This document shows positions 8,988 to 9,103 of a stretch of 64,000 nucleotides of DNA, piece after piece. Source of the DNA: Cinnamomum chago (lineage: Eukaryota > Streptophyta > Magnoliopsida > Laurales > Lauraceae); the NCBI GenBank assembly GCA_038049695.1, contig CP142458.1, positions 58,003,501 through 58,067,500 on the forward strand, read 5' to 3'. Within the stretch, counting starts at the first letter, position 1; each line of letters begins with the position of its first letter. The position numbers were made by a program, and so were the translations under genes. The notes beneath the pieces are model-generated. The model worked only from the letters and a program-made list of their open reading frames with translations. It ran no database searches and had not been told where the DNA came from.

Positions 8988-9103
8988 CAGATTGAAAGAG
9001 AGAGCTGACAGAAAGAGAAGTGAGCACGCAACGGAACAGCATACCCTTATACAATTGCCGGCGTGTGCTCACTCTCTTCTGTCAGTCCCTCCTCTCTCTC
9101 TCT
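8988..9103 (-). ncRNA. MIR156: MIR156 precursor hairpin
   Basis: The minus strand at 9084-9065 reads TGACAGAAGAGAGTGAGCAC, identical to the canonical plant miR156 mature sequence. The opposite arm, at 9025-9004, reads GCTCACTTCTCTTTCTGTCAGC, the usual miR156 star strand. The two arms pair almost fully, with one small bulge. They enclose a loop of about 35-40 bases, and the stem continues outward through GA/CT-rich sequence. The mature RNA is on the 5' arm, as in all known MIR156 genes. miR156 represses SPL transcription factors and keeps plants in the juvenile phase. The gene is transcribed leftward. Its neighbours are low-copy-looking DNA, not transposons. This is the most secure host gene in the window. 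Confidence 0.96.

Follow-up and report, generated by a model that had tools for sequence, protein, structure and literature searches.

MIR156 genes help to set when a plant passes from its juvenile to its adult phase, and transposons of the CACTA superfamily are characterized by target-site duplications of 3 bp. According to PMC4739381, Arabidopsis has 10 or more MIR156 loci, and miR156 targets 10 of its SPLs; Table 1 of PMC12594335 lists structural criteria (2-nt 3' overhangs, no more than 5 mismatches, asymmetric bulges of at most 3 nt, and a miRNA and star of 20 to 24 nt) as well as expression criteria (10 reads or more, with the duplex accounting for at least 75% of the reads from the hairpin). 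The capture of host gene pieces by Pack-CACTA and other Pack-TYPE elements is likewise known from PMC8903248 and PMC13317346; PMC8903248 states that maize Pack-CACTAs often carry DNA of several loci and that CACTA target-site duplications measure 5 nt. Our literature search for a MIR156 fragment captured by Pack elements listed general reviews and genome papers, a result that does not by itself establish absence from print.

The stretch of DNA analyzed here (hereafter, the window; 64 kb, C8:58003501-58067500 in a 1.06-Gb genome of 14 contigs) carries on its minus strand what is, judging from its sequence, almost certainly an ordinary, standard plant MIR156 gene (Table 1). The locus has in common with the MIR156 family (RF00073) the mature sequence, the star, the 5'-arm position, the stem, and the presence of SPL-type sites in the genome, whereas it differs in the divergence of its loop and flanks and in nothing more. 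It is one more locus in a family that is already very well known, and its practical use lies in annotation, since an annotation limited to protein genes would miss it.

Table 1. Features at and around the MIR156 locus, in window coordinates
Feature	Position	Strand	Basis
MITE-like repeat downstream of MIR156	6590-6930	-	genome matches, opposite-strand end matches
Recurrent segment, also found complete or partial in scattered composite elements	7562-8442	-	95.8% identity to L052, at least 14 other places
Block common to the C2 MIR156 paralogue	8447-8490	-	82%, 45 columns, E 2e-5
Extended stem-loop	8989-9103	-	MFE -63 kcal/mol, z -6.70
Predicted miR156*, 22 nt, 3' arm	9004-9025	-	2-nt 3' overhangs, two 1-nt bulges
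MIR156 precursor core	9005-9085	-	Rfam RF00073, model positions 1-88
Mature miR156, 20 nt, 5' arm	9065-9084	-	exact match, 20/20 bases paired
Upstream region, no second copy found	9170-9700	-	genome search, window itself only
Candidate TATA box, TATAAAA	9477-9483	-	only TATAWAW in 1,000 nt upstream

The MIR156 hairpin, its paralogues, and candidate targets

An earlier note on this DNA had placed a MIR156 locus on the minus strand, and the match to Rfam above cut-off, the exact 20-mer, and the geometry of the hairpin all bear this out. The precursor core scores 65.2 bits (cmscan; E 1.3e-11) against a gathering score of 62, a margin of just 3.2 bits at this locus. The mature 20-mer lies on the 5' arm, as had been proposed, and has no mismatch to the canonical miR156 sequence; it is the sole match in the window at up to three mismatches, against a mean of 0.01 in 100 shuffles. 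The star was also correctly located on the opposite arm, where it pairs with every base of the mature strand to form a duplex that has 2-nt 3' overhangs at both ends and no mismatch, the two star-side bulges falling at 9014 and 9019. Folding the minus strand over 8980-9110 pairs both arms with an energy equalled by none of 200 shuffles (mean, -38.4 kcal/mol), and the outermost pair, 9103-8989, lies one base inside the 8988-9103 first given for the hairpin. With strands of 20 and 22 nt, the hairpin conforms to all four structural criteria in Table 1 of PMC12594335. A second MIR156 hairpin in tandem can be rejected: across the 64 kb, Rfam matches MIR156 once and 5S once.

From established knowledge of the MIR156 family, we infer that the locus is transcribed and processed and that its product acts by slicing, with a role in the passage from juvenile to adult growth. 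A Pol II transcript would start upstream of the hairpin, possibly from the TATAAAA, and would fold into the stem-loop, from which a Dicer-like enzyme would excise the miR156/miR156* duplex; miR156 would then guide the cleavage or repression of SPL mRNAs with a complementary site.

The family search scored 59 of 47,022 first-look candidates, such that its counts are lower bounds, and recovered at least seven loci over the Rfam cut-off: one each on C2, C4, C7, and C8 (that of the window) and three on C9. The six loci outside the window score between 65.1 and 89.5 bits. Six of the seven hold the exact 20-mer, a single mismatch being present in one C9 copy, and an alignment of the seven hairpins yields 32 consensus pairs, of which 8 show compensatory change, meaning that in one or more sequences both bases differ yet pairing is kept. 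With the loop included, the nearest relatives of the window hairpin are those on C2 (90.5% identity over 84 columns) and C4 (87.5% over 96 columns). Below the cut-off, the matches comprise antisense images of these loci together with a MIR157-like locus and a cluster, both on C4.

The three C9 hairpins stand in tandem within 1.1 kb (1086124-1087187) and possibly share one transcript. The C4 cluster (35.81-36.72 Mb) comprises five similar loci, each with a MIR156-like hairpin, that are 92 to 97% identical over the compared stretches; TTGACAGAAGAGAGAGAGCAC, the exact complement of the SPL site, is found in four of the five, and the fifth has one change. These loci fall far short of the Rfam cut-off, four of them at about 29 bits, and may represent a recent MIR156-like expansion. 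Elsewhere on C4 (7.47-7.52 Mb), two MIR157-type hairpins of one orientation are separated by 45 kb, and one of them carries TGACAGAAGAGAGAGAGCAC, again the exact complement of the SPL site.

Exact SPL-type sites number 14 genome-wide, five of which are inside miRNA-like hairpins (one in the MIR157-like locus at C4 7.52 Mb and four in the C4 cluster at 35.8-36.7 Mb). Each of the nine others has a 5' SBP-domain exon 3 to 11 kb upstream of it and in its own orientation, the distance being that to the exon. These nine are candidate miR156 target sites and count in favour of a MIR156 gene in the window. A further SPL-type site, on C10 and with one mismatch, likewise has an SBP exon of its own orientation, 1.1 kb upstream.

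A downstream segment shared with dispersed composite elements

When 7900-8960 was searched against the genome, ten other places proved to be 92 to 95% identical to the window from 8442 downwards, and two more gave short, weak matches. The copy that we examined as reference (L052, on C5) is aligned with 8442-7562 over 881 columns. This copy is a composite of three modules, a left one (about 1-483), a middle one (479-1345), and a right one (from 1339), which overlap at their junctions by 5 and 7 bases, and other copies found in a genome search with L052 are 93 to 99% identical to it. The middle module occurs, whole or in part, at at least 14 places besides the window (40 of 58 candidates scored). 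The window carries the middle module alone, matching positions 479-1345 of L052. Among short copies of the left module, 14 of 15 end at 483, and among those of the right module, 1 of 10 starts at 1339; both ends of the window match therefore coincide with junctions that are seen elsewhere, the right-hand one in a single copy.

Around L052, inverted ends (CACTACACCAAAACAAGG and CCCTGTTTTGGTGTAGTG) lie 7,644 bp apart and match at 91% over 33 bp, and GCG stands on both sides, a 3-bp target-site duplication in this one copy. Between the ends are, in one orientation, a GARP-type exon (NCBIfam myb_SHAQKYF, 33.2 bits against 29.3), a piece of a serine carboxypeptidase (Pfam Peptidase_S10, 35 bits against 21.9), and a piece of an EF-Tu-type GTPase (Pfam GTP_EFTU, 72.1 bits against 26.5), together with the segment that lies downstream of MIR156 in the window. 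For the GARP-type ORF, Pfam gives nothing at E 0.1; its best solved relatives are PHR1, and we take the exon to be KANADI-like. The mature miR156 sequence is absent from the element, and nine selected ORFs inside it gave no transposase match. Just past its 3' end, and outside it, a match to DDE_Tnp_4 (38.8 bits; L057) is present: the structure is a composite CACTA-type element inserted in a transposase-like gene.

The flanks of a second copy (C2, 66.63 Mb) are different. The common sequence starts 37 bp before L052 and extends 1,887 bp past it, and the outer flanks differ from those on C5, with another CACTA-like start upstream and no matching end in the 6.5 kb downstream. The CACTA class is thus demonstrated for one of the two copies, out of 14, whose flanks were read. 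A Helitron had been considered for the composite on account of the TC at which the common sequence starts in the two copies, and was dropped for the C5 copy because of the CACTA-type ends and the GCG repeat around it.

The C5 copy resembles Pack-CACTA and Pack-TYPE elements in its CACTA-type inverted ends, its flanking 3-bp repeat, and its several host gene fragments. It differs from the Pack-CACTAs of PMC8903248 in having 3 bp (GCG) and not 5 nt duplicated, and from Pack-CACTAs in that one fragment appears to derive from the flank of a microRNA gene; moreover, both ends are demonstrated in only 1 of the 14 copies.

We consider it likely that the MIR156 locus was the donor and that a CACTA-type transposon captured 0.88 kb from its downstream flank, a transduplication, which is a known kind of event. 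The stretch would have been copied into the element and spread with the other host gene fragments. A reversed history, limited to the segment, would make 7562-8442 a transposon fragment that landed next to MIR156, with the MIR156 locus then not the donor. It predicts what is seen at the hairpin-proximal side, where similarity to the C2 paralogue, in a block some 0.6 kb past the start of the mature strand that none of 200 shuffles matches in score, breaks off at 8447, with the segment starting five bases farther on. The downstream blocks common to the C2 and C4 paralogues, which were not recovered at this locus, likewise speak against the donor reading. It also accords with the marginal similarity of the segment to the paralogue flanks: in six comparisons, the best was equalled by 4 of 200 shuffles and the other five by 15 to 139 of 200, such that we reject paralogue similarity, marginal at best, as a demonstration of native origin. 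Against insertion, a random piece of the composite would not be expected to end at module junctions, yet the window match is confined to the middle module and stops at junctions that other copies define. No transposon terminus was seen by eye at either end of the segment, and 8062-8031 matches the C2 and C4 paralogues at mutually aligned positions, although with an E value of 0.44 each. On this balance, insertion is unlikely, and capture from the MIR156 flank is the reading we prefer.

If true, the transduplication would be a case in which a transposon acquired flanking DNA of a conserved microRNA gene with a developmental role, and would be of somewhat more consequence than the MIR156 locus itself. 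The transposon-borne copy has no mature sequence and is probably inert. Far more speculative, and in our judgment very improbable, is the sequence of events in which a CACTA family captured 0.88 kb of downstream (possibly primary-transcript) DNA of MIR156, joined it in one orientation to the GARP exon and further gene pieces, and dispersed it to 14 places or more, with small RNAs from the copies acting in trans on MIR156 and transposon activity thereby reaching the timing of the juvenile-to-adult change. The dispersed copies could confound read mapping and the assembly of the primary transcript at MIR156.

Upstream sequence and surrounding repeats

For two parts of the earlier reading, the gene's own TATA box and its being a complete miRNA gene, the support is weaker than was claimed. 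TATAAAA is indeed present 0.4 kb upstream of the hairpin, but it is weak evidence, as 14.4% of 500 dinucleotide shuffles contain at least one such box and, in the six upstream stretches taken from paralogues, no TATAWAW falls within 100 nt of the corresponding distance. We therefore reject the box as decisive evidence; non-significant alone, it is a plausible candidate for a promoter box. The genome search with the upstream region (simple repeats and very common words skipped) returned the window alone, with no second copy, and genome searches give no support to the hairpin or the upstream region being part of a repeat.

The window had been described as transposon-rich, with the microRNA gene as the only host gene that could be supported. 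The first description is confirmed by Pfam. From 88 stop-to-stop ORFs of at least 85 aa, the 65 that reach 92 aa were scanned, and six have a match over the cut-off, all to retroelement domains (zf-RVT in three; RVT_2; an integrase with SH3_retrovirus; and gag_pre-integrs with Pol_BBD). Sub-threshold matches in five more ORFs are to Exo_endo_phos, RVT_1, zf-RVT, and Pol_BBD, four families with retroelement links or names, and to YfkB. The second description is uncontradicted, in that none of the 65 ORFs has a host domain at cut-off, in a scan that short-exon genes could escape.

Such surroundings raise the question of a silent relic, that is, a MIR156 locus with an intact hairpin that lost transcription as transposons closed in. 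Repeats do stand near the gene on both sides, in the form of a LINE-type zf-RVT (11889-12224) and the MITE-like repeat, and the downstream blocks common to the C2 and C4 paralogues are missing from window positions 1-14000, save for 8447-8490, which is the only significant non-repeat similarity to the paralogues beyond the hairpin, and marginal matches. However, the mature strand, star, and stem are wholly intact, and no repeat was detected in the searched 0.5 kb upstream, so a relic seems a very remote prospect beside an ordinary MIR156 gene. We reject a chance hairpin resembling MIR156 as next to impossible: it could draw on the GA/CT-rich flank and the CT array at 9092-9168 (tandem-repeat finder), but is opposed by the Rfam match, an exact 20-mer where 0.01 matches are expected even at up to three mismatches, the correct star, the fold, and the identity of the whole hairpin to its C4 and C2 paralogues.

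The MITE-like repeat has at least 50 matches in the genome (40 of 2169 candidates scored), the long ones 72 to 78% identical, and short matches to the opposite strand at either end are suggestive of terminal inverted repeats. The same family occurs downstream of the C7 MIR156 gene, at 67.6% identity over 352 columns; this C7 match (+2158) was rejected as synteny, being this repeat with its many genomic matches.

Farther along the window, 18742-19704 repeats a 356-bp unit 2.7 times in tandem, with matches to 5S rRNA (41.7, 27.2, and 25 bits against a cut-off of 38) and with TTGGTATCAGAGCC, presumably a tRNA primer-binding site, between units; the unit has at least 139 matches in the genome. A 5S-rRNA-like sequence in a short repeated unit and the TTGGTATCAGAGCC between units recall the Cassandra TRIM, and the array looks like a Cassandra-type TRIM in tandem. 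Tandem repeats of 152, 35, and 40 bp flank the array at 17611-18208 and 19730-19945, and the motif GACGAAAAT/GTCAC, noted by eye, suggests that they are subterminal repeats of a CACTA-like element in which the 5S-like array is nested.
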